A stretch of DNA of 57,459 nucleotides from Clostridia bacterium (GTDB taxonomy: Bacteria; Bacillota; Clostridia; Christensenellales; Aristaeellaceae): positions 1 to 57,459 of the forward strand of contig JAFZOG010000104.1 of assembly GCA_017550745.1 (NCBI GenBank). The letters run 5' to 3'. Of the stretch, positions 6,291 through 47,635 are shown piece by piece. The translations under genes and the position numbers were made by a program. The notes beneath the pieces were generated by a model. It worked only from the letters and a program-made list of their open reading frames with translations. It had not been told where the DNA came from and did no database searches. Every line of letters begins with the position of its first letter. The first letter of the stretch is position 1.

Positions 6291-6343
6291 GAAAAAGGGG
6301 GGAGAATGCCCCTTCGCGTGACGCGCTGGCAGGCATTCTCCCC
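6291..6343 (-). terminator. Stem-loop with T-run after the binding-protein gene
   Basis: On the minus strand a 12-bp stem GGGGAGAATGCC/GGCATTCTCCCC (6332-6343 with 6299-6310) is followed by CCC and TTTTT. It lies just after the solute-binding protein stop and before the GH2 gene. It probably terminates part of the transcripts, so that the binding protein is made in excess over the enzymes, a common layout in such operons. Confidence 0.7.
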
Positions 6344-6367
6344 TCGGGTCATTTGCTTGAAACCGGA

Positions 6368-7969: not shown

Positions 7970-8126
7970 GTTGTTTCCTCCTTCATATATTTAGGGCTTT
8001 TTGCCCTTGGGAACGAAATAATAGCATCCGCAGCCTCAATCGGCGCGACTGCCCTTCATGGGCAGATCGCTTGTTTCGGCTGATTTCACCGCCGATTTTT
8101 TGCCGCCACAGGCGGCAATCGGTGGT
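7970..8126 (-). promoter_or_regulatory. Hairpin-rich spacer between permease and binding-protein genes
   Basis: Four nucleotides after the permease stop lies a strong hairpin: GCCGCC/GGCGGC (8102-8107 with 8111-8116) extended across a T bulge by CCGATT/AATCGG (8092-8097 with 8117-8122). Two smaller stems follow, CTGCCC/GGGCAG (8049-8054 with 8060-8065) and AGGGC/GCCCT (about 7993-8007). The main stem is followed by A residues on the coding strand, so it is not a classical terminator. I infer an RNA-processing or transcript-stabilising site that raises binding-protein expression. Confidence 0.5.
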
Positions 8127-9047: not shown

Positions 9048-9060
9048 TCGTCCCACCTCC

Positions 9061-10017
9061 TCAGAACAGGGAATAGTCCGGCTCGATCTTCTTTACGATG
9101 GCGTTGACCGTCAGCACCAGGATAAAGCCGATCAGGGACTGGTAAAGCCCCACAGCGGAGGCGGTGGAGAAGTTGAAGTCGGACACTGTGGCGCGGTACA
9201 CGAACATTTCGATGATGTCCACCTTCTGGTACAGGATGGGGTTGCGGCCCACCAGGTTCCAGAACAGGCCGAAGTCGCCCTTCACGATGCCGCCCAGGGC
9301 AAACAGCAGCAGGATGACCACCGTGGGCTTCAGGCTGGGCAGGATGATGTACCGGATCTTCTGCCAGCCGTTGGCGCCGTCGATCATGGACGCCTCGATG
9401 ATGGAGTCGTCAATGCCCATGATGGCGGCGAAATAGACCACGGAGTTGTAGCCCGTCTTTTGCCACAGATGCACCAATATGATGATGAAGGGCCAGGGGT
9501 CGCCCGTCTTGTACAGGCGCAGCGGCTCTGCCCCGATGGATTTGAGGACCACGTTCAGGAAGCCGGTGTCAGAGTTCAGCAGGCTGAACACCAGCAGGCC
9601 CACCAGCACCTGGGAGATGAAGTAGGGCAGGAACATCATGGTCTGGCTGACCTTGCGGAAGGATTTGCTCTGGATCTCCTTGAGCAGGATGGCCACCGTG
9701 ACCGCCAGCAGATTGTCCAGCAGGATGAACGCCAGGTTGAACAGGATGGTGTTCTGCGTCAGCGTCCACAGTTTGCCGGACTTTGCCACGAAGTCGAAGT
9801 TTTTCAGCCCCACGAAGGGACTGCCGAAAATGCCCTTTCGGTAGTTGTAGTTCACGAAGGCCACGTAAATGCCCGGCAGAGGCGCGTAGCTGAAAGCGAT
9901 GAAATAGATGATGGCCGGAACGCACATCAGAATCAGCGTCTTGGAATTGAACAGCTTCTTCGACAGCGCCCCTTTCATGGAATATGGGGCCGGCTTTCTT
10001 GGATTGATGGTAGTCAT
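9061..10017 (-). CDS. Carbohydrate ABC transporter permease, LplB-like
   Basis: A 318-residue permease of the MalF/LplB type, with membrane segments starting at about residue 30 (LILMCVPAIIYFIAFSYAPLPG) and an EAA loop EASMIDGANGWQKIRYIILP near residue 215. It forms the channel with the LplC-like protein. The start has GGGAGG a few nt upstream. As first gene of the operon it is preceded by a leader of about 200 nt and a near-consensus promoter. Confidence 0.9.
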   Translation of the reverse strand: MTTINPRKPAPYSMKGALSKKLFNSKTLILMCVPAIIYFIAFSYAPLPGIYVAFVNYNYRKGIFGSPFVGLKNFDFVAKSGKLWTLTQNTILFNLAFILLDNLLAVTVAILLKEIQSKSFRKVSQTMMFLPYFISQVLVGLLVFSLLNSDTGFLNVVLKSIGAEPLRLYKTGDPWPFIIILVHLWQKTGYNSVVYFAAIMGIDDSIIEASMIDGANGWQKIRYIILPSLKPTVVILLLFALGGIVKGDFGLFWNLVGRNPILYQKVDIIEMFVYRATVSDFNFSTASAVGLYQSLIGFILVLTVNAIVKKIEPDYSLF

Positions 10018-28710: not shown

Positions 28711-28826
28711 AATGCCGTGTTTGAATCTGTTTTATAGCCAAAGGGAAACGCTTTTAGATTTTTTACAGAGCAGCTTTCTGCAAAACGCCGGCGCGGGCAG
28801 GGATCTGTTCACAGGAGATGAAGCAC

Positions 28827-30251
28827 ATGGGTAAAGATGCGAAAAAGAGGAAAATCACTCCGCTCAATGCCTGGGCGTTTTCGTTTGCGTGCGCTATCGG
28901 CTGGGCGGCGTTTATTATGCCCGCCACGACCTTTCTTCCCCAGGGCGGGGTGACCGGCTCCATCCTGGCGTTCATCGCAGGCGGGGCGGTCATGTGCGTC
29001 ATTGCAGCATGCTATCATTATCTGGGGAATCTGTATCCCGACCAGGGCGGTATTTACAGCATCATCAAATGCTCCCTGAACAGAAGCATAGCCTTTGTGG
29101 CGGCCTGGGGGATGGGGCTGGCGCATATGTGCTGCATCCCGCTGAACGCAAAGGCCATGGCAATGCTGATCCGGGTGTTCCTGGAGGAAGCGTTTGAGCT
29201 GAAGTTTGAGATCAACTTTTTCCAGTCCGATACGCTGCTGCTGGAAGCGGTGCTGATCGTGATTTGCCTCTTCCTCTTCGGCCTGATCAATGTCCGCGGT
29301 ATCAAGCAGGCCGCCCGGGTGCAGACCATCGGCGCGATCGTGCTGCTGAGCGGCATCGTGATCATGCTGATCGCCGCCGCCTTCACTTCCCCCAAGGGCG
29401 CCGCCGCGTTCACGCCTTCCCTTCCGGAGGGCAGCAGCTTTGTTTCGTCCTTCATACCCATTTTCCTGATCACGCCCTGGGCGTTCGTGGGATTTGACTC
29501 GCTGTCCAAGGTGACGCAGGAATTGAATTTTCCGGTCAAGCGGATCGGACGGATCATGATCATCGCCGTCATCTGCGGCACCTTTACCTATATCGCCAAT
29601 ATTCTGACCACGCTGCTGGGCATGCCCGCGGACTATGCGTCCTGGACCGAATACCTGAACGGCGTGAAAAAACTGTCCGGGGTAGACGCTTATCCCGTGG
29701 CGCTGGCCGCGAAAAACGCCATGGGAAAGGTCGGCGTGATGATCTTTTTTGCCTCCTGCATCAGCGCTACGCTGACCGGCCTTGTGGGTTTCTTCACCTC
29801 CATCAGCCGCCTGCTGAGCCAGATGGCGGAGGACGATATCCTGCCTGATTTCCTGGGCAAGATCGACCCCAAGCGGGGCACCCCCGCAAAAGCCATCTGG
29901 ACAGTGGTGGTGCTGGCCCTGCTCCTTTCCCTGATGCGCGATTCCTTCGATTTCATCGAGGAAGTGGCGTCGGTGGGCACGGCGCTGGGGTTTGGATTGG
30001 TGGCTGCCGCCACGCTGGTGAACGCCCAGTCCAGGGAAGATAAAAAATATGTGTGGGTCGGGCTGGCAGGCTTCCTGCTGTGCCTGTGCTTCCTGACGTT
30101 CCTGCTGACCGGCTTTGCGGGCCAAAACGGGGTGATGAGCTTCAAATCGTATTTCCTGCTGATGCTTTGGGTGTTCATCGGGATCGCGATCTATTCGTTC
30201 TTCACCCGGAATAAGCAAAAGTCCGAAATCGAACTGGACCACCAGAAATAA
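28827..30251 (+). CDS. APC-family amino acid permease, free-standing
   Basis: A 474-residue membrane protein of the amino acid-polyamine-organocation superfamily with about 12 membrane helices. The N-terminal NAWAFSFACAIGWAAFIMP and the central ITPWAFVGFDSLSKVTQELNFPVKR parallel WAFSIGTSIGWGSFI and ISPWAFIGFENISHFSEEYSFPVKK in the permease part of the kinase fusion at 36719-40948, so the two are paralogous modules. Of two ATGs 9 nt apart I choose the second, which has AGGAG at a workable distance; the first directly abuts it. It is followed at 20 nt by the sugar transferase. Substrate unknown; amino acid or amine import is inferred. Confidence 0.85.
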   Translation: MGKDAKKRKITPLNAWAFSFACAIGWAAFIMPATTFLPQGGVTGSILAFIAGGAVMCVIAACYHYLGNLYPDQGGIYSIIKCSLNRSIAFVAAWGMGLAHMCCIPLNAKAMAMLIRVFLEEAFELKFEINFFQSDTLLLEAVLIVICLFLFGLINVRGIKQAARVQTIGAIVLLSGIVIMLIAAAFTSPKGAAAFTPSLPEGSSFVSSFIPIFLITPWAFVGFDSLSKVTQELNFPVKRIGRIMIIAVICGTFTYIANILTTLLGMPADYASWTEYLNGVKKLSGVDAYPVALAAKNAMGKVGVMIFFASCISATLTGLVGFFTSISRLLSQMAEDDILPDFLGKIDPKRGTPAKAIWTVVVLALLLSLMRDSFDFIEEVASVGTALGFGLVAAATLVNAQSREDKKYVWVGLAGFLLCLCFLTFLLTGFAGQNGVMSFKSYFLLMLWVFIGIAIYSFFTRNKQKSEIELDHQK

Positions 30252-31823: not shown

Positions 31824-33725
31824 ATGAAAGCAATGAAAAAAATCGCACTGGTGACCTGCGGCTCCAATTTTGAACGGCATGGGAATATCATTCGCGCGAT
31901 GCGCCGGAAGATTGCCGAATTGGGAAGCTACGCGCTCTATGTCATCACAAGCTACGGCGTTTACGAGGACGGCATGGACTTTTCCCAGGGTGAGCCGGCG
32001 ATTTACCGCCTGCTGGAGGTCATTGATATCGACGGCTGCATCCTGGAAGCGAATCTTGGCAGTAGCGAGCTGGCGAAACGGATCGTTGCCATCCTGAAAA
32101 AACGCGGGATCCCCGTGCTGGCGATCAACCTGAAAATCGCGGATGTGCCAAGCCTGAATCTTGAAGTGAAGACCGCCGGGCTGGAGCTGCTGGAACACCT
32201 GATCCTGACCCACGCGTGTTCCCGGATCAACTTGGCGCTCAGCTTCGGAAACCGGGTGATTTCCGACAGCATGCTGGAGGTGTACCGCAAGGCGCTTTTG
32301 AAATACGGCATTCCCTATGACGAGCGCCGCGTGCTGACGACCAGCGTTTCCATCCAGAGCGGCCAGGATCTGTATGCGAGCTTTGACCGGCGGGGCGTCA
32401 TGAAGGACGCGCAGGCCGTGGTCTGCATCCATGACGTATGCGCCTTCGGTTTATGCATGGAGCTGTTGTCCAGGGGTATGCGGGTGCCGGAGGATCTGCG
32501 GGTCTGCTCTGTGAATTGCAGCGGCAACAGCATTGCCTGGTCCCCGGGGATCACCGGCATTGACCGCATGGACGGCAAGGCCGCCGAGCTCGCCTGCGAG
32601 CTGATGGATCGGATGCTCAGCGGCGGGCAGGTCAGCCCGGAAAACACCTATCCCGGCCAGTTGTGCTGCCTGCGCAGCTGCGGCTGCGGCGTTTCGGCTT
32701 CGGCCATGGACGGGCGGGCCGATGTTTTCCGGCGCCTGGTAATCAACAAGGTGGAAGCCGCCAAGCAGATCGGCGGCATGATGCAGTTCAACAACGCGCT
32801 GGAGGACGTGAGCTCCCTGGCCCAGCTGGCCGCGAACATCCGCAGGATGATGCTGGGGATCGGCTGCCTGTCCTATTTCTGCTGCCTGAATGAAAATGAC
32901 CTGCCCTATATCGAAAGCGACCGGGAGGATGCCGGGAGCGCCGTCGATTCCCCTTACCATGACAGGATGGTGGTCCTTACCGGAGAATCCGGGCGCACGG
33001 GAGACCTTTCTGGCGCCGCCTTTGCGCTGGAAAACCTTGTGCCCGCCGCGCCGCAGGCCGGGGATGTGTTTGTTGTCCTGCCGATCCATTATATCAACAG
33101 GTCCTATGGGTATATGGTGTTTTTGAACGATATGCTGCCTGTGGACAACTACCACTACCGGATCTGCCAGGACAGCATTGGCAGCAGCATCGATAACCTG
33201 CATCGGCATATGATCCAGAAAAGCACCATCGAGGAGCTGGATCTTCTGCATATGCAGGATCAGCTCACCGGCCTGCAGAACCGGTTTGCCTTCAAACGCT
33301 ACCGCAGGGAATACATATCCTCGCCGGGCGGATACACTACGGTGCTCATGGATATCGACGGCCTCAAGACCATTAACGACCAGTTCGGCCACTTGGCGGG
33401 CAACAACGCCATCTCCATCATCGCCGAGGTGATCCGGGAATCGGTGGGGGAGACGGATCTGGCGATCCGTTACGGCGGCGACGAATTTTTGATTCTGTCC
33501 CATGATACCAGCGCCGCGCTCTGGGAAGAACGCAGAAAGGAAATCAATCAGCGGCTGGAGGATATCTCTGTCCGGCAGCAGCTTCCTTACCGCCTGGGGG
33601 TCAGCCTGGGATACGCGGTTTCCACACTGGATACGCCCCTGTCCATTGAAAAAAGCCTGGAGCTTGCGGACAGGGCCATGTACGAAAACAAAAAGGAAAG
33701 GAAAGCGCGGTATAACGGCGTATGA
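31824..33725 (+). CDS. Diguanylate cyclase with LacI-type ligand-binding domain
   Basis: A 633-residue soluble protein. Residues 5-290 resemble the periplasmic-binding-protein core of LacI/GalR repressors but without their helix-turn-helix (VVCIHDVCAFGLCMELLSRGMRVPEDLRVCSVN is the typical LacI C-subdomain). A GAF-like middle region follows (about 300-465), then a GGDEF domain (475-633) with intact GGDEF at 551-555 and the metal/GTP motif MDIDGLKTIND. The inhibitory RxxD site is absent (GETD in its place). There is no signal peptide or membrane helix, so it should sense a cytosolic ligand, likely a sugar, and make cyclic di-GMP. The ribosome binding site is weak (GATGGGAA), leaving the first or fourth codon as start. 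Confidence 0.88.
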   Translation: MKAMKKIALVTCGSNFERHGNIIRAMRRKIAELGSYALYVITSYGVYEDGMDFSQGEPAIYRLLEVIDIDGCILEANLGSSELAKRIVAILKKRGIPVLAINLKIADVPSLNLEVKTAGLELLEHLILTHACSRINLALSFGNRVISDSMLEVYRKALLKYGIPYDERRVLTTSVSIQSGQDLYASFDRRGVMKDAQAVVCIHDVCAFGLCMELLSRGMRVPEDLRVCSVNCSGNSIAWSPGITGIDRMDGKAAELACELMDRMLSGGQVSPENTYPGQLCCLRSCGCGVSASAMDGRADVFRRLVINKVEAAKQIGGMMQFNNALEDVSSLAQLAANIRRMMLGIGCLSYFCCLNENDLPYIESDREDAGSAVDSPYHDRMVVLTGESGRTGDLSGAAFALENLVPAAPQAGDVFVVLPIHYINRSYGYMVFLNDMLPVDNYHYRICQDSIGSSIDNLHRHMIQKSTIEELDLLHMQDQLTGLQNRFAFKRYRREYISSPGGYTTVLMDIDGLKTINDQFGHLAGNNAISIIAEVIRESVGETDLAIRYGGDEFLILSHDTSAALWEERRKEINQRLEDISVRQQLPYRLGVSLGYAVSTLDTPLSIEKSLELADRAMYENKKERKARYNGV

Positions 33726-34741: not shown

Positions 34742-36217
34742 TCAGCCCTGTCCCGCCTTCATCCTGGCTTTGGCCTCATACATGGCCTGGTCAGCGCGCT
34801 TGAGGACGGCTTCAACGTTGTCACCCGCCTGGAAAACCGCCATGCCGACTGCCGCGGAGCAGCGGTTCCAGGGCGGCATGCCGCTTTCGTTCAATGCGCT
34901 GGCAAACGCCTCCTTGAGCTGTTTTAACAGCTTTTCCCGGTTGTTATAATCCTGTCCCTCCAGCACGGCGACAAACTCGTCTCCGCCGATGCGGTAAACC
35001 GGGGAATGAACGAAGGTTTCGCAGATCAGCTTGCAGGAGCCGATGATGTATTCGTTTCCCTTGTCGTGCCCGTACTTATCGTTGATGACTTTCAGGTAGT
35101 TTAAATCCACCATGACGATGCCGAATTTTGCCGTGCTGTTCATGATATCCCAGGCCAGCGACTCTGCCTTCTCATCATAGGCCGCCTTGTTTTTCACCTG
35201 CGTCAGCGCGTCTTTATAGGCAATGTCATTCATTTCGTTGACGTGTTCCTGCAGGCCCCTTGCCTCGTCTTCCGCGGCGACCATGTACTTGATGTAATCG
35301 CGCATATCAGCGGAAAGCTTCGTGACGGCATTGGCAAGGGAAGCGACCTCGTTGTGCGATCTGATGACAGGCGGCGTGAAGACAAGCTCATCCGGATCGT
35401 GCTTGCCGGCAGTGGTTTCGGCAAAGGAAACAACGCTGTTTTCAAGATCGTGAAGCGGCTTGGTCACGTTCAACCGCATCCAAACCAGCAGCAGCGCAAT
35501 GAAGAGGATCCCCAGGCCGACGACCAGGGCGATGTTGATGATCACCGTTTTGAATACCGTTTCAATCAGCTGATCCTTTGAAACATCCACGCACAGCACC
35601 CCGTAGTGCTCTCCCCGGGAATTGACGACAGGCCTGGCAAGGGTGTAATCCACGCCCCACTCCGAGGCATTCGTCAGGAACACGTCCTCGCTGCCCTGCA
35701 AAATGGCGCGGAACTGTTTTCTCGTATCCTCCCCGTACCAGCCGTCCAGGTCATCGGAATGATCGCCGAGCGTGAGCACGTACTCCGGAAAGTTTTCTTT
35801 TTCGTAAGTGGTGTTTGCGGTGCAGACCTCATAGATCTCGTAGGGATCGCCCACGTCCGCTACCTTCATGATATAGATGTAGTGGACGTCTTTGTATTTT
35901 AAATCCGATTCCGGGTCGTTGATGAAAGCATTGTCGGCATAGGTATCGATAAAGGTATCCAGGAATGCCTGGAATTCCTCGTACTTTTCCGACTTCACAA
36001 AGGTGTTTGCGCATTCTGCCATATCGTCATGGTCGATGTGGGCTTCCACGTAGTTCAGGATGCTTTCCATCTGTTTTTCGTATCTGGCGTAAATGCTCGT
36101 TCGGAAGACGAGGACCGTGGCCGCTGAAATGACGATCCCCAGCAGCAGGATAAACAGCGCGCTTGCGCAAATAATGCTGCGGTTCAGCGGGTATTTCACA
36201 TTGCTCCTTTTTCTCAT
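34742..36217 (-). CDS. Membrane diguanylate cyclase with extracellular sensor domain
   Basis: A 491-residue protein: membrane helix 1 (about 17-38), an extracellular Cache-like domain (about 45-225), helix 2 (about 228-252), a HAMP-like linker, a short coiled coil, and a C-terminal GGDEF domain (about 345-490) with RIGGDEF intact. The inhibitory RxxD site is missing (FVHS in its place). It should make cyclic di-GMP in response to an external small molecule. I start it at MRKRSNVKYPL because AAGGAG lies 9 nt upstream; the frame is open for 104 more codons, but these cover the leader and promoter. The gene is convergent with the kinase remnant and separated by a long leader from its promoter. 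Confidence 0.9.
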   Translation of the reverse strand: MRKRSNVKYPLNRSIICASALFILLLGIVISAATVLVFRTSIYARYEKQMESILNYVEAHIDHDDMAECANTFVKSEKYEEFQAFLDTFIDTYADNAFINDPESDLKYKDVHYIYIMKVADVGDPYEIYEVCTANTTYEKENFPEYVLTLGDHSDDLDGWYGEDTRKQFRAILQGSEDVFLTNASEWGVDYTLARPVVNSRGEHYGVLCVDVSKDQLIETVFKTVIINIALVVGLGILFIALLLVWMRLNVTKPLHDLENSVVSFAETTAGKHDPDELVFTPPVIRSHNEVASLANAVTKLSADMRDYIKYMVAAEDEARGLQEHVNEMNDIAYKDALTQVKNKAAYDEKAESLAWDIMNSTAKFGIVMVDLNYLKVINDKYGHDKGNEYIIGSCKLICETFVHSPVYRIGGDEFVAVLEGQDYNNREKLLKQLKEAFASALNESGMPPWNRCSAAVGMAVFQAGDNVEAVLKRADQAMYEAKARMKAGQG

Positions 36218-36401
36218 GGGTGGAAGCTCCTTTTTCGTCGTCGGCTTGTTTTTCATGGTTTTCGTTAAAGCACCGCCGAATGATTCGGCGCCGCATTCGC
36301 TGAATCTGTGCGAAAACGCCGGGCGTTTGCCTGCCCATCGCGGCATACCTTCCGGGAGGCCCTTCCGCTGTGGGCATATCCCGTGCTTATTGTCAAAATC
36401 T

Positions 36402-36430
36402 ATTATATCAAAAAAGGCGGAGCGCATCAA
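36402..36430 (-). promoter_or_regulatory. Promoter of the membrane diguanylate cyclase
   Basis: On the minus strand TTGATG (36425-36430) and TATAAT (36402-36407) are 17 nt apart, about 185 nt before the start codon. Apart from this promoter, its leader and the kinase terminator, I see nothing in 36218-36718. Confidence 0.7.
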
Positions 36431-36668
36431 TAGAAAAATCGTTCCGCAATTCATTCGCCTGCAATCCCGCAGAAGGGACGCTGGGGCAGCTTGTCCCATG
36501 CCCGAACCCGGGGTTTCTTCCGGATGCATTTTTTGCTGTTGAAGGAAGGAAAAAACTGTAAAATAATGCTGAGCCAGTCATTGCTACGGAATACGGCGGA
36601 ACCGGTTTTGAAAGCACGGCGGACGGAGGGACTCGGCACAGCAATGAAAATGATGCCAGGAACGAAAT

Positions 36669-36718: not shown

Positions 36719-39700
36719 TCAAGCAGTCCCGCTCTCCGCTTCATAAATCAGCTCACCCAAGGTCTGGTAAAGGGCTTCCGGCTCCACCGGCTTGATGAGA
36801 TGGGCGTTCATGCCCGCCTGGAGAGACCGCTGCACATCTTCGTCAAAAGCATTGGCGGTCAGCGCGACGATGGGTATTTTTTTCGCGTCCTCCCGATCCA
36901 TGGCCCGGATCGCCGCCGCGGCCTCCAGCCCGTCCATTTCCGGCATGCGCACGTCCATGAGGATGGCCGCATAGGTTCCCGGCGCGCTCTTGGAGAACAT
37001 CTCGACGGCGGCCCTGCCGTTCTCGGCGTGGTCGGCCTGAATGTTTTCCATTTCGAGGATGTCCATCATGATCTCGGCGTTGATCTCCATATCCTCAGCC
37101 AGCAGGATGCGGCATCCTGCCAGGCTGGCCCGCTTTTTCTCCTTGAACAGCGCCATGTTGTTGCGGCGGGCGATCCGCTCAAATTCTTCTATGACTTTCG
37201 AGGCGAAAAGCGGTTTGGTCAGGAAGCTGTCCACGCCCACGCGCTCCGCCTCCTCCTGGATATCATCCCAGTTGTACGCCGTCAGGATGACCACGGTGGT
37301 CTCGCGGTCAAAGCTCTTTTGGATTTCGGCGGAGGTTTCCAGCCCGTTCATCCCCGGCATGTTCCAGTCCATCAGCACGAGGTTGTACGGCTTATTCTTC
37401 AGGCGCTGCACTTCCATCAGGCGCAGCGCTTCCTCCCCGCTTGTACAGGTGTCCGCGTAGATGCCGACTTCGTCCAGCACCATTCTGGCGTGTTCTGCCG
37501 CGATTTTATCGTCGTCCACCACCAAAACATGGAAGGAATTGGGGTCAATGGCGCTTTCCTGGGCGGTTCCCTGCTGGTCGCAGTTTCTCAGGGTGACCGT
37601 CACGGTGAATTCGCTTCCCACGCCTTTTTCGGATTCAACGCTGATGGAGCCGTTCATCATCTCCACGATGCGCTTCGTGATGGCCATGCCCAGGCCGGTG
37701 CTGCCGTATTTGGTCTTGCGGCTGCCGTCCTCCTGGGAGAAGGGCTCGAACAATTTGGGGATAAACTCCTGATCCATGCCGATGCCGGTATCCTTGATGC
37801 AGAAGCGGAGGGTGGACTGATCCTCAAATTCCATCGTCCGCTCCACCGTAAGGGTCACGCTGCCGGGCGCTTCGGTGAATTTGATGGCGTTGGACAGGAT
37901 GTTGATCAGCACCTCCTTCAGCTTCATATCGTCGCCGATATACGAGGCGTCCACCTTGTTCAGGATGCGGCATTCGTAGGTGAGCCCCTTGTCGCTGCAC
38001 TGGGACATGACCATCGCGTTGATCTGCTCCAGCATGGCGCTGAAGGAGAACACTTCCCTGTGCAGAACCATGCGGCCGGACTCGATGCGGCTCATATCCA
38101 GGATGTTGTTGATGAGGCTGAGCAGGTGCTTGGCGCTGCCGGAGATCTTCTCCAGGTATTCCTTTGTCTGGCCGCTGAGGGTTTTATCCTTGAGGGCCAG
38201 GGTGTTGAGCCCGATGATGGCGTTCATGGGCGTGCGGATCTCATGGCTCATGCTGGAGAGGAAGGACGTCTTTGCGCTGTTCGCTTCTTCCGCCGAGGCC
38301 AACGCTTCCGCCAGGGCCTCGCTCTTGGACATGGCGTCGCGCATTTCGGCGTCCACGTTGGATATTCCTACGATGATGAAGCGATCGTCGTCCTCCATCC
38401 GGGAGACTTTCATGCTGACGTAGATGGGGCCGCTGCAGCCGGTCTGGCGGTACGTCATGATATAGGTGTTTTTCCGGTCCAGGGCCTTCATCAGCGTTCG
38501 GCGGTCCAGCGCCTTGAGGAAGGCGTCCTGATCGTCGGGATATACGTTCCTGCTCAGCTCTTCGATACAGTCGCTGAAGAAGTGCCAGCCGCGCCGCGCC
38601 TCGGAAGGTGCGCTGGTCTTTTCGGCTTTGCGATACTCGATGAACTCCTCGGTTTCAAGGTTGACGGAGAACATGTCCGTATAATCCCGGGCCAGGGTAT
38701 GGGCGATGTGGGTATACATGAGCCCGGCGCTGAGGGCTTTTTCATAAGCCTCCTTCGTCATGGCGTTTTCATGCTGGATGCGCACCATGTCCGTCACGTC
38801 CTGGGACATGCCGAGCAAGCACATCCGCCCCGTGGAATCGATGAATTTCAGCTTCGTCGTTTGCAGCTGCTTCTGGTTTCCGGCGGCGTCAGGCACGTCT
38901 TCAAAGAAGATATACGGCTTGTCCATGGAGAGGGCGATCCTGTCGTCCGCGATGAAATGGGCGGCTGTTTCGGCGTCGAATATCTGGGCGTCGGTGAGCC
39001 CGGCCACGCCCGCCGGGTTTTTCTTGTGGGCATAGTCCGCAAAGGCCTGGTTGCAGGCAAGGTACACGCCGGTCTGCGCGTCCTTGGTGAATGTCAGGCA
39101 GGGCATGTTGTCCAGCAGCGCGCTGATGGATTCCTGCAGCTCCGCGATCTTCCGGACCGTGGCTACCTCGTGCTCGGCCTCGTTCAGGCGCTTGCCCAGC
39201 TTTTGCGTATCCCGGTAATTGTTCAGCAGGATGCCGATAAAGAGCAGGAACACACCCAGAGAAACGCTGGAATACAGGGTATTGGTGCGGCTGATCGCCT
39301 CCGCCTGCTCCTGGAGATAAGCCGTCCTTTCCTCTGCGGCGCCGCTTTCCATGTCGGAATCCGGATGGCTCTGGTGGTACGTAAAGATCCGTTCCACCGC
39401 TTCATTCGCGGCGTTTTCCGTGGCCCGGGAAACCCACATCATCGAAGCGAACAGCACCAGCACCAGCAGGATGATCCATACGATCACGCTCTGCTTGCGC
39501 TCTTCATCGCGCTTCAAATAGAGCAGGAACCGGTAGTACCAAAGCCCCAGCACTGCCCAGGCGATGAACAGGATATAGGAAACCGTCTCCATGGCGTGGA
39601 AGGGCAAAAGGCCAGGAATCAGCAGCAGCATCAGAAAGACGATCATCAGCAGTATGCCCGCGACGCCTGTGGTTTTTTCCAGCCGCCGGCCCGCCTGCTG

Positions 39701-40948
39701 CGCGTGCCGATAGACCGCCAGGGAAACCAGTCCGTAGATCAGCGTCGCGCCCAGGGTGGTGACGTCCACGATCCAGCCGATGGCCGTTCTGCCCACAAAG
39801 GGAATGAAAACGGATATGGCCACAACAGTGGCGACCGCCTTGCCCGGAATGCCTTTGCTGTTCAGATCGGCGAGGGCGCGGGGCGCTTCGCCTTCCCGGC
39901 CCGCCGCGTACAGCAGGCGGCTCAGCGCCAGCGTATTGCCGATGAGGCTGGTCAGGATCACCGCAAAGAGGGAGAGCATAAGCAGCGTAACGCCGGCCTG
40001 CCCGAGATAATGGTCTGCCGCGTAAAACGCCGGAACCGCCTTGATGCCTTCCAGGTTCCCCATATCCCGGATGTAGGCCAGCCAGCTGTCATACTCCGGC
40101 GGGTAGGCGGAGATGGAAAGCAGGGAAACAAAGACATAGAGCAGCGTCGTGATCAGGACGGACCAGATCAGGATCGTGCGCGTTTTCTTCACGGGAAAGC
40201 TGTATTCCTCGGAAAAATGCGAGATGTTTTCAAACCCGATAAAGGCCCAGGGGGATATGGCGGCGATATGGATGATTTGCAAGAAGGCTTTGGAGCCTTC
40301 CGTATACAGCGGCGCATAGCTGAAGGCGCTGTCATGCCGCAAAACGGCCAGCACGGCGCAGAATGTGAACCCCACGGCAAACGTCAGCGCGGCGGCGATC
40401 ATGATTTTGTTGGGCAGCCTGGCGCTCCTCAGGCACAGCAGGCCGATCAGGATCACAGCGCAGATGGAAAGCAGCGCTTCGCCGAACCATACCTCATAGC
40501 CGAACACACGGTAATGGAAACCGAACCGGAAGGCGTCGCCCAGGAAAAAGCGGGCAAACAGCGGGAGGGACGTCATATTGGCCCAGAGGATGGCCATATA
40601 GGTCAAAAGCACAAACCAGAAGGTGAGGAACCCCAGATCCTTCCCGCCGACTTGCTTCTGGAAAGTATAAATGCCGCCCGCGCTGGGCGCTTTCTGAATC
40701 ATGTACTGCAAATTCCAGGTGATCACAAAAATGACCGCCATGCCGATCAGCAGCCCGAAGACCGTGCCGAGAATGCCGGACTTTTGCAGATAGGTATTGC
40801 AGGTTACGATAAACGAACCCCAGCCGATACTGGTGCCGATGGAGAACGCCCACATGCCCATGGGCGTGAAATTGGCCCTCAGTCCCTGGGCGGGGCTGTC
40901 CGCTTTCGTCTTAGGCGAGGCGCCGTGTTCACCGTGCTGTATACTCAT
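36719..40948 (-). CDS. APC permease fused to hybrid histidine kinase with two receivers
   Basis: A 1409-residue single open frame. Residues 25-475 are an APC-type amino acid permease (about 12 helices; ISPWAFIGFE at 231-240). Two more helices (about 487-507 and 561-577) flank a roughly 50-residue outer loop. A coiled coil (580-610) leads to a PAS domain (about 610-720) and a second PAS-like module (about 750-870). The kinase follows: H902 in SHEIRTP, N-box NAIKF near 1020, DTGIGM 1053-1058, GSTGLGMAI. Receiver 1 has D1145-1147, phosphoacceptor D1194 and K1245; receiver 2 has E1285/D1286, D1332 and K1386. All key residues are present. AAAAGGAG is about 8 nt upstream; the gene follows the PAS-GGDEF gene by 33 nt. 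I infer a transport-coupled sensor (transceptor) or a permease fold used only for sensing. No DNA-binding output is fused. Confidence 0.92.
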   Translation of the reverse strand: MSIQHGEHGASPKTKADSPAQGLRANFTPMGMWAFSIGTSIGWGSFIVTCNTYLQKSGILGTVFGLLIGMAVIFVITWNLQYMIQKAPSAGGIYTFQKQVGGKDLGFLTFWFVLLTYMAILWANMTSLPLFARFFLGDAFRFGFHYRVFGYEVWFGEALLSICAVILIGLLCLRSARLPNKIMIAAALTFAVGFTFCAVLAVLRHDSAFSYAPLYTEGSKAFLQIIHIAAISPWAFIGFENISHFSEEYSFPVKKTRTILIWSVLITTLLYVFVSLLSISAYPPEYDSWLAYIRDMGNLEGIKAVPAFYAADHYLGQAGVTLLMLSLFAVILTSLIGNTLALSRLLYAAGREGEAPRALADLNSKGIPGKAVATVVAISVFIPFVGRTAIGWIVDVTTLGATLIYGLVSLAVYRHAQQAGRRLEKTTGVAGILLMIVFLMLLLIPGLLPFHAMETVSYILFIAWAVLGLWYYRFLLYLKRDEERKQSVIVWIILLVLVLFASMMWVSRATENAANEAVERIFTYHQSHPDSDMESGAAEERTAYLQEQAEAISRTNTLYSSVSLGVFLLFIGILLNNYRDTQKLGKRLNEAEHEVATVRKIAELQESISALLDNMPCLTFTKDAQTGVYLACNQAFADYAHKKNPAGVAGLTDAQIFDAETAAHFIADDRIALSMDKPYIFFEDVPDAAGNQKQLQTTKLKFIDSTGRMCLLGMSQDVTDMVRIQHENAMTKEAYEKALSAGLMYTHIAHTLARDYTDMFSVNLETEEFIEYRKAEKTSAPSEARRGWHFFSDCIEELSRNVYPDDQDAFLKALDRRTLMKALDRKNTYIMTYRQTGCSGPIYVSMKVSRMEDDDRFIIVGISNVDAEMRDAMSKSEALAEALASAEEANSAKTSFLSSMSHEIRTPMNAIIGLNTLALKDKTLSGQTKEYLEKISGSAKHLLSLINNILDMSRIESGRMVLHREVFSFSAMLEQINAMVMSQCSDKGLTYECRILNKVDASYIGDDMKLKEVLINILSNAIKFTEAPGSVTLTVERTMEFEDQSTLRFCIKDTGIGMDQEFIPKLFEPFSQEDGSRKTKYGSTGLGMAITKRIVEMMNGSISVESEKGVGSEFTVTVTLRNCDQQGTAQESAIDPNSFHVLVVDDDKIAAEHARMVLDEVGIYADTCTSGEEALRLMEVQRLKNKPYNLVLMDWNMPGMNGLETSAEIQKSFDRETTVVILTAYNWDDIQEEAERVGVDSFLTKPLFASKVIEEFERIARRNNMALFKEKKRASLAGCRILLAEDMEINAEIMMDILEMENIQADHAENGRAAVEMFSKSAPGTYAAILMDVRMPEMDGLEAAAAIRAMDREDAKKIPIVALTANAFDEDVQRSLQAGMNAHLIKPVEPEALYQTLGELIYEAESGTA

Positions 40949-40981: not shown

Positions 40982-43420
40982 TCAGCCGTTCTTGATTGCC
41001 TTCAGGTCGCTCTTGTTTTCGTACATGCGCTGGTCCGCGCGTTCAAACACGGGCGCCACACGGGCGTCACGCTCGTATTTCGCCATGCCGCAGGCGATCA
41101 CGATGCCTCCGCTTTTCAGCGCGTCTGTGTTTCTGGCCCGCATCTGCTCCACCAGTTCGTCGATGCGCTGATAGTCGCTGCCCTGGGAGATGACGGCAAA
41201 TTCGTCCCCGCCGATGCGGAACACGGGGCTGCGCTTGAAGGTATCGCAGATGATCTTGCAGGCGTCCTGGATGTATTGGTCTCCCGCGTTGTGCCCGGCG
41301 GTATCGTTGACCTTTTTCAGGTCGTTCAGATCCAGGATCACGATGGCGAACTCCGATACGAGGCCGCTTAGGATCTGCTGGTTCAGCCTTTCTTCCGCCT
41401 CCAGATAGGCGTGCCTGTTCTTCACGTGGGTCAGGGGGTCGATATTGGCGTTGATCTGCGCCTTGGCGAGGTTTTGGGCATACGCTTCCTCCTGGCGCAC
41501 CTGATTGTCGATGTCCTGGATGCCGACGATCAGGCGTCTGCCCTCCTTCTCCTCCGCCATCGCCGCCTTGAGCAGCACATAGGAGGATTCCCCGTCCTTC
41601 ACCAGGCGGTAGCTCAGGGTGAATATGCCGTACTGCTTGATCTCCGCCATGACGTTTTCCAGGGTAAAGAACGAAAGGAAACGGTTGAGATCGTCCGGGT
41701 GGTTGAACTGGCGGGCCGCATCCCTGGTGGTTTTGAAGAAATCCGTGCCTTCCTTGGCCTGCCCGAAGGAGGTATAGCCCTGTGACGCGCTGAATTCCCG
41801 GTAATTGCCGGTTTCCGGGTCCACCACGTAGATGCAGAGGTAATCGCCGGCCAGCGCATGGATGCGGGCATAGGCGATCTGCTCTTCCGCCGCCCGCTCC
41901 GCCGCCCAGCGCTGCTGCATATGCTCGTCAACGTCCGCCACGCCCAGGATGATGCAGTGCGCATCCTCCTCCGAGCGGGAAACCTTCATGGAGTAATACC
42001 TGGGCTCGCCGTTTGTCATTAAACGGTAGGTCATGACGAAGGTGCTGTTCCGGTCCAGCGCCGCTTCAAGGGCCTTTCGTTTCATTGCCTTGATCACGGC
42101 GTCCCGGTCGTCCGGATGCACCATGGCCTCCGCTTCGATCCGGAAGGTCTCGAAGAAGTGCCAGCCGTGGCGCGATTCTTCCAGGGTGTTGCTGTCTTCG
42201 TCATTGTGGTATTCCGTGAATTCCTCGGTATCGAGGTTGACGTAATAGAGCACCGTAAATCCGCGGGTCAGCGCGTGGGAGATATGGGAATAGATGATGC
42301 CGGTGGTCTTCGCCTTTTCGTAGTCTTCCCGGGTGGTTGCCTTATCGCGCTGGACGCTCACAATGTTCGTCACATCCTGGCACATGCCCAGAACGCAAAG
42401 CTGCCCGGCGAAATTGGTGTATTTCAGCTTCGTGGTCTGGAGCTGGCGCCGGTTGCCGGCGGCGTCCGGCACGTCCTCATAGAAGATGTAGGGCTCGTCC
42501 ATGGAGAGGGCGATTTTGTCCTCGTCGCCGAACTGCTTTGCGGTCTCGGCGTCGAAGAGCTGCGCCGCGGAAAGCCCGATCACGCCCGCCGGGCTTTCCT
42601 TGTCGGCGTAGTCCGCGAAGGCCTTGTTGCAGGCGAGGTACACGCCGGTTTCGGCGTCCTTGGCAAAGGTCATGGCGGGCATATTGTCCAGCAGGGAGAC
42701 GATGATATCCTGCATTGTGGCCACCTTATCGGCCTGCGCCAAGCTGTGCCTGTATTCCTCGGCCGCGTCGCTGATGAGGAAGGTGCGCAGCAGGCAGGTG
42801 CCCAGCAGATACCCGACGGCGTACAGGGGGAGATACGGGAACCAGATCTGAATGAAGAGGAAAAGCGCCATGATCAGGCCGAACAGCGCCAGGGCGCAGT
42901 ATCTGATCCTGCTTTTCGCGGGATTGCGGCGCAGCTTGGAAAACGCGTAGGCGGAAATCAGGAGCAGCTGCAGGATCTGGCTGACAAGGATGAAATACCG
43001 CACGGGAAGCGCGCGGTACACGCAATCCGCGTCCACCGTGAACAGCATGGGCTTAAAGATGTTGGCCACCGTGAGAAGCGCGATGATCGCCGCGATGAAC
43101 TGTCCCGCGAACACAAGCATATGCCCGATCTCAGTCTTCTCTTCCAGATAAGCCACCGTGAACTGTGACCAGAACAGCACGCCCGCGGCCATGGCGGCGA
43201 AATAGACGGTGGTGTCGGCAAAAAGCAGCAGCGCCAGTTTTCCGGCTTCAAAAAAGCCCCACAGGACATCCACGATGTAATACGCCAGGACGGCAAACAG
43301 GAAATTTCTGTACGCCTTCCAGACGGGCTGATCATAGAAATCCCTGGGTTTGAAGAGCAGGTCATGATGCTCGATCAGCAGTATCAGGATCGCAAGCAGA
43401 CTGATTGCGGAATAATACAT
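40982..43420 (-). CDS. Membrane PAS-PAS-PAS diguanylate cyclase
   Basis: An 812-residue protein. About seven membrane helices fill residues 1-215. A PAS domain (about 240-350) and a PAS-like module (about 380-500) closely resemble the two sensor modules of the permease-kinase fusion (LLDNMPxxTFxKDAxTGVYLACN, EDVPDAAGN, QLQTTKLK are shared). A third module (about 515-640) resembles the C-terminal modules of the EAL protein at 44669. The GGDEF domain (655-805) has RIGGDEF (735-741) and lacks the RxxD inhibitory site. It should make cyclic di-GMP. It lies 33 nt upstream of the fusion gene in the same direction, so the two are one operon. The ribosome binding site (AGGGATG) is weak. Confidence 0.9.
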   Translation of the reverse strand: MYYSAISLLAILILLIEHHDLLFKPRDFYDQPVWKAYRNFLFAVLAYYIVDVLWGFFEAGKLALLLFADTTVYFAAMAAGVLFWSQFTVAYLEEKTEIGHMLVFAGQFIAAIIALLTVANIFKPMLFTVDADCVYRALPVRYFILVSQILQLLLISAYAFSKLRRNPAKSRIRYCALALFGLIMALFLFIQIWFPYLPLYAVGYLLGTCLLRTFLISDAAEEYRHSLAQADKVATMQDIIVSLLDNMPAMTFAKDAETGVYLACNKAFADYADKESPAGVIGLSAAQLFDAETAKQFGDEDKIALSMDEPYIFYEDVPDAAGNRRQLQTTKLKYTNFAGQLCVLGMCQDVTNIVSVQRDKATTREDYEKAKTTGIIYSHISHALTRGFTVLYYVNLDTEEFTEYHNDEDSNTLEESRHGWHFFETFRIEAEAMVHPDDRDAVIKAMKRKALEAALDRNSTFVMTYRLMTNGEPRYYSMKVSRSEEDAHCIILGVADVDEHMQQRWAAERAAEEQIAYARIHALAGDYLCIYVVDPETGNYREFSASQGYTSFGQAKEGTDFFKTTRDAARQFNHPDDLNRFLSFFTLENVMAEIKQYGIFTLSYRLVKDGESSYVLLKAAMAEEKEGRRLIVGIQDIDNQVRQEEAYAQNLAKAQINANIDPLTHVKNRHAYLEAEERLNQQILSGLVSEFAIVILDLNDLKKVNDTAGHNAGDQYIQDACKIICDTFKRSPVFRIGGDEFAVISQGSDYQRIDELVEQMRARNTDALKSGGIVIACGMAKYERDARVAPVFERADQRMYENKSDLKAIKNG

Positions 43421-43513: not shown

Positions 43514-44239
43514 TCAGCGCGTGAACGTGTGCCGGAAATACAGCACGTTGTTGTTGCGCTCCAGGAATTCAAGTACATCCTCCTGCCTGACACAGTTGTT
43601 CATCTTGATCTCCATGGAATACTTGGTGGAGCCATCCTGGTTGCGCAGGATGCTGCTCTCCATGACCTGGGCCTGCCAAAGCTGAAACTGCCTGGTCAGC
43701 TCGGTTCGGAAGTTTTTATCCTCCCTGGCCGTGATTTCGATATGGTATATCTGATACTGGTCGTTGTGGACAGGCAAACGGTGCATGATGATTTGAAACA
43801 GGATCACCAGGCCGGTGCTGAAAATACCCAGGGGGTACATGCCCGCTCCCAAGGCCAGGCCGATGCCCGCCGTGGCCCAGAGACCGGCGGCGGTGGTCAG
43901 CCCCTTCACCATGGGGCCCTGCTTGAAAATCACGCCCGCGCAGAGAAAGCCGATGCCGCTGACCACCTGGGCGGCAATACGCGCGGGATCCGCCCCGCGA
44001 ACGCCCCACGCGCTGCCCTCCGACGTGATCGTCAGATCGGAAAACCCGTATTTCGATACGATAATGATCAAAGCCGCGGCGCAGGAAACCAGCATATGCG
44101 TGCGCACCCCCGCTTCCTTCAGCCGCCGGCTGCGCTCCATGCCGATTGAGGCGCCGCAGACGCTGGCCGCAGCGATACGCAGAAAAAATTCCAGATATTG
44201 CAGGATCGAAATACGCTGATTCAGGAAGTCCAAAAACAT
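43514..44239 (-). CDS. MgtC/SapB family membrane protein
   Basis: A 241-residue protein with four to five N-terminal helices (residues about 10-140) and a soluble ACT-like C-terminal domain (about 150-241). Family marks are the GASIGMERSRRLKEAGVRTHMLVSCAAAL block near 30-55 and GIGFLCAGVIFKQG near 95-108. MgtC relatives take part in magnesium homeostasis and, in some pathogens, lower cyclic-di-GMP and cellulose output by acting on the F-ATPase. I start it at MFLDFLNQ, which has AAAAGGTGG about 8 nt upstream; a GTG four codons earlier overlaps that site. Confidence 0.88.
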   Translation of the reverse strand: MFLDFLNQRISILQYLEFFLRIAAASVCGASIGMERSRRLKEAGVRTHMLVSCAAALIIIVSKYGFSDLTITSEGSAWGVRGADPARIAAQVVSGIGFLCAGVIFKQGPMVKGLTTAAGLWATAGIGLALGAGMYPLGIFSTGLVILFQIIMHRLPVHNDQYQIYHIEITAREDKNFRTELTRQFQLWQAQVMESSILRNQDGSTKYSMEIKMNNCVRQEDVLEFLERNNNVLYFRHTFTR

Positions 44240-44433
44240 GAACGATACCACCTTTTATCATCTGCTTTGGGGCTGACGGCATGAGGCTCCGTGCCAAGGG
44301 GGAGCTTCCCTGCTTTGGAATAAATGCTTTGCCTGGCGGCAGCCGGGAAATGATTCCCATTTCCTGCAATGGGAGCCTAAGGGATGCTGTGGCTGAAACG
44401 CTTTCGCGGCGCGCTTTTTTCGGGAATGACAAG

Positions 44434-44668: not shown

Positions 44669-47635
44669 ATGGAGAAATACCGATATTCAGTTCAGGAGCG
44701 ATCGATTCTTGAGCGCCAGCGGCAGCCGTTTGCCATTTATCAGTTGATTGACAACCGGGTGGTGGCCCTCGTCCTTTCGGACGGATTCTGCCGGCTTTTT
44801 GGCTATGAGGATCGCGGGCAGGCCTATTTTGACATGGATAACGACATGTACAAGGACACGCATCCCGATGACGCCGGCCGGATCGCCGCAGCCGCCGCCC
44901 GCTTTTCGGCAGAGGACGGGAAGTATGAAGTGATCTATCGGACGAAAACCAGGAAAGGGTCCGAATATCGGATCATCCATGCCTATGGGGAGCATGTGTA
45001 CACAGATACAGGCGTCCGCCTTGCCCATGTTTGGTATGCCGACGAAGGGATTTACAAGGAAGAGCCCGCTCGGCAAGGGCTGGAGCTCAATCAGTCCCTG
45101 AGCAACGCGCTGAAAGAAAACAGCATTGTAAAGGCCAGCCGGTACGATTATCTGACGGGCCTTCCCAGCATGACGTATTTCTTTGAGCTGGCGGAGGCGG
45201 ACCAGGAAAACGCCCGGAAAACAGGCGAAAAACCTGTTACCATGTATATGGATTTTATCGGCATGAAGTATTACAACGCAAAATTCGGCTTCGCCGAGGG
45301 GGATCGGCTGCTGCAATCCTTCGCAAAGATCCTGGCAGAAACCTTTGGGATGGAGCACTGCTGCCGAATGGGGGCCGATCATTTTGCGGTGCAGACGGCA
45401 GAAGCCGGAATGGAAAATAAGCTCAGGCAGGTGTTCCTTGAATTCAGGGAAGCAAACGGCGGTACGACGCTGCCGGTTCATGTGGGCGTCTATGCGGAGC
45501 AGCTTGAAAAAGTACATGCCAGCGTCGCCTGCGACCGGGCAAAGCTCGCCTGCCGGGTGCTGAGAGGCAGATATGAAACCGCGGTGAAGTATTACAGCCG
45601 GGATCTGAGCAAAGACGCCGTAAAAAAGCAGTATATCATCGAAAATATCGATCGGGCGATAGCGGAAAAATGGATCCAGGTCTATTATCAGCCGATTGTC
45701 CGCGCCATCAACGGCTTGGCCTGCGACGTGGAAGCCCTTGCCCGCTGGAACGATCCGGAGGAGGGCATCTTGTCCCCGGCGGATTTTGTGCCTTATCTGG
45801 AAGAAGCGGGCCTGATTTATAAGCTGGATCTTTTTGTTCTCGACCAAGTATTGATCAAAATGAACCGGGTCACCGGGGACGGTCTGCTTGTGGTGCCGCA
45901 CTCCATCAACCTGTCGCGCTCTGACTTTGACGCCTGCGACATCGTGGAAGAAATCAGAAAACGCGTCGACGCCGCCCGGGTCAGCCGAAGCAAGATCTCC
46001 ATCGAAATCACGGAAAGCGTGATCGGCGGCGATTTTGATTTCATGCGGGAGCAGGTGGAGCGGTTCCGGAGCCTTGGTTTCCCCGTGTGGATGGATGACT
46101 TCGGCAGCGGTTATTCTTCGCTGGACGTGCTGCAAAGCATCAAGTTCGATCTGCTCAAATTCGATATGGGCTTTATGCGAAAGCTGGATGAGGGCGGAAA
46201 AGGCAAGATCATCCTGACCGAATTGATGAAGATGGCCACGCTGCTGGGCGTGGACACCATCTGTGAGGGCGTGGAAACGGCGGAGCAGGTCCGTTTCCTG
46301 CAGGAAATAGGCTGCTCAAAGCTCCAGGGGTACTATTTCAGCAAGCCGGTGTCTTACCAAACGATCCTCGACAGGCGGAAAGAAGGGCATTCATTGCTTC
46401 CGGAGAATCCCGAAGAAGCGGCCTATTATGGTTCGATCGGCCGGGTCAACCTCTACGATCTGGACGTGATGACCAGCGTAAAAGACAGCGCGCTCCAAAA
46501 TAGCTTCCACAGCGTGCCCATGGGGATCCTGGAAATCAATCGCGATTACAGCCAATATGTTCGGTCAAATCCGTCGTACAGGGACTTTATGAAACGGTAC
46601 TTTGGATTTGACATTGCAAAAGATCAAATGGATATGCACGCGCCGCCCGCCGGATACAGCCCCGTTTTCCTGAATTCTGTCAGGCAATGCTGCGATACGG
46701 GGAATATCATGTTTTTTGACGAACGGCTGCCTGACGGTTCAAAAGCGCATGCCTTCGTAAGAAGAATCGGAATCAATCCTGTTTCTGGAAATGTGGCCGT
46801 AGCCATCGCCGTCCTTTCCATTTCCGATCCGGACCAGGGCGAGAGTTATGCAGATATTGCCATGGCGCTGGCTGTCGACTACTATAATATCTTTGTGATC
46901 GATCTGGATACAGATGCGTATATCGAATACTCCTCCCAGGGCAGCGGGGAAGAGCTGTCGGTCATTCGCCGCGGGGAAGGGTTCTTTGAATCGGCGAGGC
47001 GCGATACGATGACGCGCATCTATCAGGAGGACAGGGAGCCGTTCCTGGCATTGTTTACCAAGGAAAATGTGCTCAAGGATCTGGACAGGCAGGGCGTATT
47101 CACGACCTCCTACCGCATGATCGATACCGGAACGCCCACCTACGTCAATATGAAGATCACCAGGATACACGGAGGCAACCGCATCATTCTGGGCATCAGC
47201 ATCATTGAGGAACAAATGAGGCAGAAGGAAGAGTTCGAAAAAGCGCGGGAGCAAAGCATCATCTTCGGCAGGATCGCCGCGCTGTCCGGAAAGCTGTTTG
47301 CCCTGTATACCGTTGATCCGGAAACGGGAAAGTATTCCGAGTATAACGTCACGTCGGGCTACGGCAGCCTGGGGTTTGACAAAAATGGCGAAAACTTCTT
47401 CTCCAAGGGCCGAAGCGATGGCGAAAAGATGGTCTATTATGAAGATCTTCTTTACTTCCAGGAGCACTTCAGCAAAGAGAGCATTATGCGGGGCGTCCGG
47501 GAGAGAGGCGTGTTCCAGATCCAGTACCGGCTGATGATCAACGGGGAGCCTAAGCCGATTGTTCTTAAAGCGGCGATGGTGCGGGAAAGCGGCGGAGAAA
47601 AGCTCATCGTCGGCGTGAATATCGTGGATGAGTAA
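44669..47635 (+). CDS. Cyclic-di-GMP phosphodiesterase (EAL) with degenerate GGDEF and flanking sensor modules
   Basis: A 988-residue soluble protein. A PAS domain (about 20-130) precedes a GGDEF domain (about 155-315) whose active loop reads RMGADHF at 233-239, so it cannot be a normal cyclase. The EAL domain (about 325-565) is complete: E355 in EALARW, NLSRSDF, EITES, DDFGSGYSSL, EGVET and QGYYFSKP. After it come a linker/PAS-like stretch (about 600-700) and two PAS-like modules (about 710-835 and 845-988) related to those in the neighbouring cyclase and kinase. It probably breaks down cyclic di-GMP, with the GGDEF part as a GTP-binding regulator. The start has AAGGAG about 8 nt upstream. 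Having sensors after the catalytic domain is unusual. Confidence 0.9.
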   Translation: MEKYRYSVQERSILERQRQPFAIYQLIDNRVVALVLSDGFCRLFGYEDRGQAYFDMDNDMYKDTHPDDAGRIAAAAARFSAEDGKYEVIYRTKTRKGSEYRIIHAYGEHVYTDTGVRLAHVWYADEGIYKEEPARQGLELNQSLSNALKENSIVKASRYDYLTGLPSMTYFFELAEADQENARKTGEKPVTMYMDFIGMKYYNAKFGFAEGDRLLQSFAKILAETFGMEHCCRMGADHFAVQTAEAGMENKLRQVFLEFREANGGTTLPVHVGVYAEQLEKVHASVACDRAKLACRVLRGRYETAVKYYSRDLSKDAVKKQYIIENIDRAIAEKWIQVYYQPIVRAINGLACDVEALARWNDPEEGILSPADFVPYLEEAGLIYKLDLFVLDQVLIKMNRVTGDGLLVVPHSINLSRSDFDACDIVEEIRKRVDAARVSRSKISIEITESVIGGDFDFMREQVERFRSLGFPVWMDDFGSGYSSLDVLQSIKFDLLKFDMGFMRKLDEGGKGKIILTELMKMATLLGVDTICEGVETAEQVRFLQEIGCSKLQGYYFSKPVSYQTILDRRKEGHSLLPENPEEAAYYGSIGRVNLYDLDVMTSVKDSALQNSFHSVPMGILEINRDYSQYVRSNPSYRDFMKRYFGFDIAKDQMDMHAPPAGYSPVFLNSVRQCCDTGNIMFFDERLPDGSKAHAFVRRIGINPVSGNVAVAIAVLSISDPDQGESYADIAMALAVDYYNIFVIDLDTDAYIEYSSQGSGEELSVIRRGEGFFESARRDTMTRIYQEDREPFLALFTKENVLKDLDRQGVFTTSYRMIDTGTPTYVNMKITRIHGGNRIILGISIIEEQMRQKEEFEKAREQSIIFGRIAALSGKLFALYTVDPETGKYSEYNVTSGYGSLGFDKNGENFFSKGRSDGEKMVYYEDLLYFQEHFSKESIMRGVRERGVFQIQYRLMINGEPKPIVLKAAMVRESGGEKLIVGVNIVDE

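Follow-up and report, generated by a model that had tools for sequence, protein, structure and literature searches.

A permease-derived candidate receptor fused to a hybrid histidine kinase in a gut Clostridia bacterium, with links to cyclic di-GMP

What does an amino acid permease do when it is joined, in one polypeptide, to a histidine kinase: carry its substrate, sense it, or hold the kinase in the membrane? The question is raised by protein P, one open frame of 1409 codons at 36719-40948 on the minus strand of contig JAFZOG010000104.1 (assembly GCA_017550745.1), from a gut bacterium of the Clostridia; the window is the whole 57,459-nucleotide stretch analyzed. The answer that we favor, with moderate confidence, is that P is a permease-derived receptor for an amino-acid-type ligand, feeding a phosphorelay that would end in the turnover of cyclic di-GMP (c-di-GMP). 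P starts with an ATG and a good ribosome-binding site, 33 bases past the upstream gene, and is laid out as follows (TM, transmembrane segment; REC, receiver).

36719..40948, minus strand: whole P, 1409 residues, APC permease - TM13/TM14 - PAS - PAS - HisKA/HATPase - REC - REC
39509..40888, minus strand: APC permease domain, LeuT fold with broken TM1 and TM6, residues 21-480
39140..39508, minus strand: two-helix linker, TM13 - outside hairpin - TM14, residues 481-603, with TM14 running on as a single helix (535-612)
38744..39139, minus strand: PASa, residues 604-735, 54% identity to the PAS_4 region of partner protein D
38294..38743, minus strand: PASb, residues 736-885, homologous to partner D
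37574..38293, minus strand: HisKA and HATPase_c, residues 886-1125, with H902
37154..37531, minus strand: receiver 1, residues 1140-1265, with D1194
36749..37117, minus strand: receiver 2, residues 1278-1400, with D1332

Pfam and sequence motifs agree with the first-pass annotation, which had described a single 1409-residue frame joining an APC permease to a kinase and two receivers through H902, D1194 and D1332. The amino acid permease (34-443), HisKA, HATPase_c and both receivers all exceed their cut-offs, with the AA_permease_2 match of the head reaching 83.2 bits against a cut-off of 27. P thus has what a hybrid histidine kinase needs: HisKA, HATPase_c, receivers, and the phospho-accepting residues H902, D1194 and D1332, each in a canonical motif. 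At E ≤ 1e-3, Pfam detects no PAS domain in P; residues 590-886 align gap-free at 54% identity with D, the diguanylate cyclase encoded upstream, in which Pfam detects PAS_4, and the PAS reading therefore holds by homology. At the same threshold, only AA_permease families match the head, with SLC5/SSS and Amt/Rh domains not found, and no STAC is among the Pfam matches to P, although whether the Pfam library contains a STAC model was not checked. The best 25 of 157 NCBIfam matches include no permease-kinase family; among them, the best match of the permease part is BcaP, whose 60 bits fall far short of the cut-off of 690.

The fusion is real and no accident of assembly. The full APC-PAS-PAS-histidine kinase (HK)-REC-REC architecture occurs in 20 full-length rows, comprising the window and 19 loci from other assemblies, in a set from which six rows with APC parts under 400 residues, as well as three short duplicates of own-genome loci, had been dropped. 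The ratio of nonsynonymous to synonymous polymorphism (pN/pS), computed against four relatives, is 0.15-0.40 for the permease, linker, PAS, kinase and both receivers, being loosest in the linker, which indicates purifying selection on all domains; the permease part is about as constrained as the kinase. The genome is a draft of 186 contigs (completeness 88.8, contamination 7.5), which is what a chimera or frameshift artefact could draw on, yet the probability of such an artefact is negligible, being refuted by the independent assemblies and by similar pN/pS on either side of the junction. By its own account, the first-pass annotation would have been refuted by a second assembly in which a stop or frameshift parted permease and kinase; the 19 loci elsewhere are intact. 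One related locus, L053, reads as two frames, and we regard it as either a damaged copy or an error.

Although first described as a single protein, P belongs to a whole family of domain swaps. APC is fused to signaling outputs in 77 mapped rows from 72 loci, or 80 rows and 75 loci when three that are cut or split after PAS (L053, L067 and L070, with no output assigned in that frame) are included. The outputs, taken from domain maps with Pfam checks on examples, are PAS-PAS-HK with receivers (22), HK with or without receivers (28), GGDEF (10), EAL-containing (12, including GGDEF-EAL and GGDEF-REC-GGDEF-EAL) and PAS-GGDEF (5); in 27 of the 80 rows (10 + 12 + 5), GGDEF and/or EAL is the direct fusion partner of the APC module. 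The scripted domain maps rest on phmmer with single sequences. Two of the APC-PAS-HK rows, L018 and L020, end within or ahead of receiver 2. L101, L041 and the first row of L012 are partial. The relatives come from one scan of genome contigs with six short peptides (best 80 of 144; 77 loci) and from samples of 150, 398 and 196 genomes; duplicate loci were dropped by hand (L007 = L123, L074 = L124, and short loci that had been refetched with more flank), and other copies may remain.

Within the family of the window, 27 of 150 sampled genomes match at E ≤ 1e-20, and the matching frame spans at least 700 residues in 19 of those 27, own genome included (G051 by a partial match; in G036 the frame runs off the contig and has a HAD-like part before the permease). 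The architecture of P occurs in two of the 18 family genomes mapped, its own and G128. Long APC frames (at least 700 residues) are present in at least 4 of 398 genomes of the phylum sample and at least 4 of 196 of the class sample, own genome in both; these are lower bounds because only the best few candidates were scored per genome. Several members stand apart. L142 and L143, in two genomes of another family, each carry two APC-HK genes side by side, which might form heteromeric permease kinases. Two contigs labelled Sutterella (Pseudomonadota) carry APC-PAS-GGDEF (L065, 2687-6181) and APC-GGDEF-EAL (L078, 2913-5630), reflecting either misbinning or inter-phylum transfer. At L100 (670-3159, plus strand), a HAD-like hydrolase part precedes an APC permease of the signaling clade in one frame, cut by the contig end.

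The head of P is predicted to adopt a 12-TM LeuT fold with broken TM1 and TM6, followed by TM13 and TM14; the helix count agrees with the one originally claimed. The structure model matches amino acid transporters; the closest solved sequence relatives are CAT1, CAT4 and GkApcT, with the best profile matches to CAT1 and GkApcT. G38 and G42-W43-G44 (TM1) and W234 and G238 (TM6) are invariant in a 57-row alignment (A1). The linker between permease and effector measures 89-131 residues and contains two predicted TMs in 78 of 79 fusions, the remaining one having three after TM12 by crude count, whereas stand-alone permeases have none after TM12 in 17 rows (16 distinct). In P, the model shows the linker as a TM hairpin that runs into a single unbroken helix of 78 residues (535-612). 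A tree of 52 APC domains, taken from 91 rows, places 38 fusion rows (three of them fragments) apart from 14 stand-alone permeases, with support of 95/89 and in 96% of bootstrap trees; the stand-alone rows L001 and L111 are on long branches, and the match region of L111 contains three stops. The window itself encodes a stand-alone APC permease at 28818-30251 (plus strand), ~6.5 kb from P, which is the nearest stand-alone row to the fusion clade, on a long branch, and provides a natural transport control for P.

Comparison of 74 fusions with the 14 stand-alone permeases, excluding three fragments (L097, whose frame is broken, and L098 and L100, which run off a contig end), reveals residues typical of the fusion clade. 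TM3 carries W122-A123 (70/74 each), TM6b carries H244 (69/74; Gln in 13 of 14 stand-alone rows), the loop before TM8 carries Y292 and F308, and TM10 carries T397 (69/74) and T398 (70/74); the TM3, loop and TM10 residues are mostly absent from the stand-alone kin. TM1, TM3 and TM10 are the most conserved stretches of the fusion APC domains, with TM10 showing the lowest entropy of the stretches compared (0.90 in fusions versus 1.52 in stand-alone kin). Trp43 was considered as a receptor mark and rejected, being present also in 15 of 17 rows with no detected output domain (14 stand-alone, three fusion fragments).

In GkApcT, E115 serves proton coupling, and K191A and D237A abolish transport, with K191A retaining binding (PMC5803215). 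Read by eye from the profile alignment, the E115 equivalent is mostly Thr and the K191 equivalent hydrophobic in the fusions, and D237 lines up with TM6b E240, which is Glu in 73 of 74 fusions and Asp in 13 of 14 stand-alone rows. In the comparison with solved APC transporters proposed in the first-pass annotation, the TM1/TM6 core residues are invariant and the equivalents of the transport residues E115, K191 and D237 are replaced. These differences bear on whether P might be an active transceptor like CbrA, in which the kinase is tuned by the transport cycle of an APC domain that takes up or exchanges its substrate. The complete 12-TM APC fold, the conserved TM1/TM6 core, extracellular loop 4 and TM10, and the strong purifying selection on the APC part all suit such a role, as does the precedent of L-histidine transport by CbrA (PMC7096432). 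We nevertheless judge active transport unlikely, given the replaced residues, the retention of binding by the transport-dead K191A of GkApcT, and fusion-clade changes that are rare in the 14 stand-alone kin. The pattern is suggestive of an APC head that acts as a receptor and may no longer transport; sensing by binding only is possible, not proven, from such sequence comparisons.

Downstream of the linker, the PAS pairs follow the output. In a tree of 73 rows, all 38 HK-linked pairs used form one clade (100/100), whether the head is APC or multi-TM, and outside it fall the GGDEF-linked pairs, whose heads are multi-TM, SBP_bac_3 or APC. This implies that the cores stayed conserved while the heads in front of PASa were exchanged. 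Nine loci (copies; L135, L141, L149) and six unlabelled rows were left out by hand, and the 34 DH and 36 SG rows were thinned to 16 each. Lachnospiraceae-type loci carry tandem SBP_bac_3 on the PAS-GGDEF core (by Pfam in one example, L054 4336-7749, plus strand; by similarity elsewhere), and there the kinase core, PAS-HK-REC-REC, bears a multi-TM head and adjoins the SBP_bac_3-PAS-GGDEF gene. SBP_bac_3 proteins bind amino acids and related solutes, and their presence on the same PAS-GGDEF core lends indirect support to an amino-acid-type ligand for the APC head. At L046, downstream of 5875-9474, a GGDEF-EAL protein near an APC-PAS-GGDEF gene has an SBP-like head, by script similarity alone.

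Such exchange of heads in front of the same cores could also mean that the permease part is a mere membrane anchor or platform and that the PAS pair is the sensor. The 54% identity between the PAS pairs of P and D fits this, and CbrA without its SLC5 part kept kinase activity (PMC7096432). An anchor is nonetheless quite improbable, since the APC domain is about as constrained as the kinase, its TM1, TM3 and TM10 are the most conserved, and the alternative head SBP_bac_3 is itself of a ligand-binding type.

Where would the signal of such a receptor go? P has no fused DNA-binding domain, as first reported, and no DNA-binding regulator lies next to it among the 23 window open reading frames scanned with Pfam. 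Its neighbors are mostly enzymes of c-di-GMP metabolism.

40982..43420, minus strand: partner D, multi-TM head (1-230) - PAS - PAS - PAS - GGDEF, 812 residues, GGDEF motif at 737
44669..47635, plus strand, divergent: PAS - degenerate GGDEF - EAL - PAS-like protein, 988 residues, EAL at 355 and DDFG at 476
34742..36529, minus strand: downstream diguanylate cyclase, at least 189 bases after P, true start probably further in

The pairing of P with a diguanylate cyclase gene stands, D lying 33 bases upstream on the same strand; whether the downstream cyclase shares the operon is uncertain. In its C-terminal part, the EAL protein resembles the PAS modules of D, the PASb region included. Two other window genes were noted: an MgtC-family gene at 43514-44251 (minus strand), which immediately precedes the D-P pair in the same orientation, and a GGDEF protein with a Peripla_BP_3 (LacI-type binding) region at 31824-33725 (plus strand).

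This arrangement recurs. Where an APC-PAS-HK row has 500 bases of room, the next gene upstream encodes PAS-GGDEF in 18 of 20 cases, and 21 of 22 such rows have a GGDEF or EAL gene within 3.5 kb in the same orientation. The APC-HK rows have Hpt directly upstream in 18 of 27 (the most distant members being among the other nine), and 9 of 16 are preceded by a REC-GGDEF-EAL gene; such a gene precedes only 1 of 19 APC-PAS-HK rows and is itself an APC fusion (L012). The genome of the window holds two further APC fusions. On contig C137, APC-GGDEF adjoins an HK-REC-REC gene, and on contig C112 (L005 617-8070, minus strand) genes for a 1322-residue APC-GGDEF-REC-GGDEF-EAL, an Hpt and a PAS-HK-REC-REC protein follow one another with 19 and 28 bases between them, a three-gene row that contains the parts of a permease-to-c-di-GMP phosphorelay. 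The HK-REC-REC protein of C112 is 56% identical to P over 714 residues, which makes the C112 Hpt the prime relay candidate for P.

A transcriptional or other output, with the GGDEF and EAL genes nearby reflecting only their abundance, would agree with the lack of a fused output and with the lack of an Hpt or REC-EAL gene beside P; with 48 GGDEF matches (47 over cut-off) and 17 EAL matches in the genome, next to 4 Hpt (3 over cut-off, on contigs C112, C1 and C156, and one below it on C85), such neighbors are partly expected. We consider this improbable, because the upstream gene is a specific paralogous PAS-GGDEF gene and the APC module is itself fused to GGDEF and EAL. This repeated, specific gene order and the direct fusions are stronger evidence for c-di-GMP than mere proximity, and they strengthen the c-di-GMP output first suggested for the locus.

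On the reading that we favor, the LeuT-fold APC domain would bind a small molecule, with an amino acid or a close analogue as the likeliest ligand. Its alternating-access movement would pass via TM10/TM12 to the TM13-TM14 hairpin and along helix 535-612 to the PAS pair and DHp; the PAS pair may integrate this movement with a cytosolic PAS ligand, setting the autokinase at H902. Phosphate would move from H902 to D1194/D1332, to a stand-alone Hpt in trans and on to a receiver on a c-di-GMP enzyme of the REC-GGDEF-EAL type, while D, with the same PAS pair, may adjust the same c-di-GMP pool.

Several observations weigh against this scheme. The stand-alone kin also lack the equivalents of Lys191 and Glu115, so their absence from the fusions is no proof of transport loss; the direct coupling of amino acid flux to the kinase that was first proposed finds no support in these residues, which are conserved in neither group. 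Sensing could in truth lie with the PAS domains, which P, D and the EAL protein have in common. Hpt was found directly upstream in none of the 20 APC-PAS-HK rows with room, in a search by four Hpt sequences only, and the relay of P is therefore modelled on its cousins. Proximity to GGDEF genes is weak evidence because such genes are common in the genome. Finally, Rfam matches no c-di-GMP riboswitch in the window, and no c-di-GMP-I riboswitch was found in the genome, by a search that matched no control genome either.

How does P compare with known systems? The GkApcT/CAT family (SLC7) contains the nearest solved relatives of its head, yet these are transporters only and differ at the E115, K191 and D237 equivalents. 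LysP of E. coli is an APC protein, and the yeast transceptor Gap1 is not known to have a fused kinase. LysP, a lysine-specific permease, relays a lysine signal (PMC6978683), acting in trans on a separate one-component regulator, CadC, with no fusion; Gap1 is an amino acid permease with a receptor role (a reference cited in PMC11109136) and, unlike P, acts in eukaryotic protein kinase A signaling. Ks-Amt5 is, like the proposed P, a transporter turned sensor and fused to a kinase, and it binds its ion without moving it; it has an unrelated Amt domain, forms a trimer and has no PAS, HAMP or STAC, and the available portion of the source describes no linker helices (PMC5764959). The SLC5/STAC kinases (CbrA, CrbS/MxtR, RpuS) share the order of N-terminal transporter, linker, PAS, DHp and CA, and some are hybrid kinases. 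SLC5 and APC families both have the LeuT fold (PMC7918813), SLC5-STAC proteins with a diguanylate cyclase are mentioned (PMC7096432), and a 2026 preprint presents CbrA as a rare transceptor joining transporter and kinase (PMC13022988). P differs from these kinases in its APC/SLC7-type head, its TM13-TM14 hairpin as linker, and its two PAS domains and two receivers; P-type hosts are Clostridia-type gut anaerobes, and the neighbors are diguanylate cyclases and phosphodiesterases (with Hpt in cousins) rather than a CbrB-type regulator. The principle of transporter signaling is thus already established by CbrA/SLC5-STAC, Ks-Amt5 and LysP-CadC, none of which is an APC-to-effector fusion. The APC type was first thought far less described than the SLC5 type; indeed, no description of an APC-to-effector fusion was found among the matches listed in the literature searched, which covers few subscription journals, and prior cataloguing of the architecture is possible.

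A broader history can be proposed tentatively, as a close call that may well go the other way. The 14-TM receptor module (APC plus the TM13-TM14 hairpin) may have arisen once in gut Bacillota from permeases, lost net transport and been shuffled onto kinases, cyclases and phosphodiesterases as one of several exchangeable heads, alongside the SBP_bac_3 and multi-TM ones, building amino-acid-to-c-di-GMP circuits. The APC fusions suggest a little-described form of bacterial nutrient sensing, in which the same sensing unit has moved between several kinds of signaling protein. Across this large family, with kinase and c-di-GMP enzyme outputs, one transporter fold and one short linker serve chemically different effectors, a natural experiment in how a transport cycle becomes a signal and which residues separate carrier from receptor, with E240, H244 and T397-T398 as candidates. 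The family also bears on the question of which amino acid signals regulate c-di-GMP in anaerobes of the rumen and gut.

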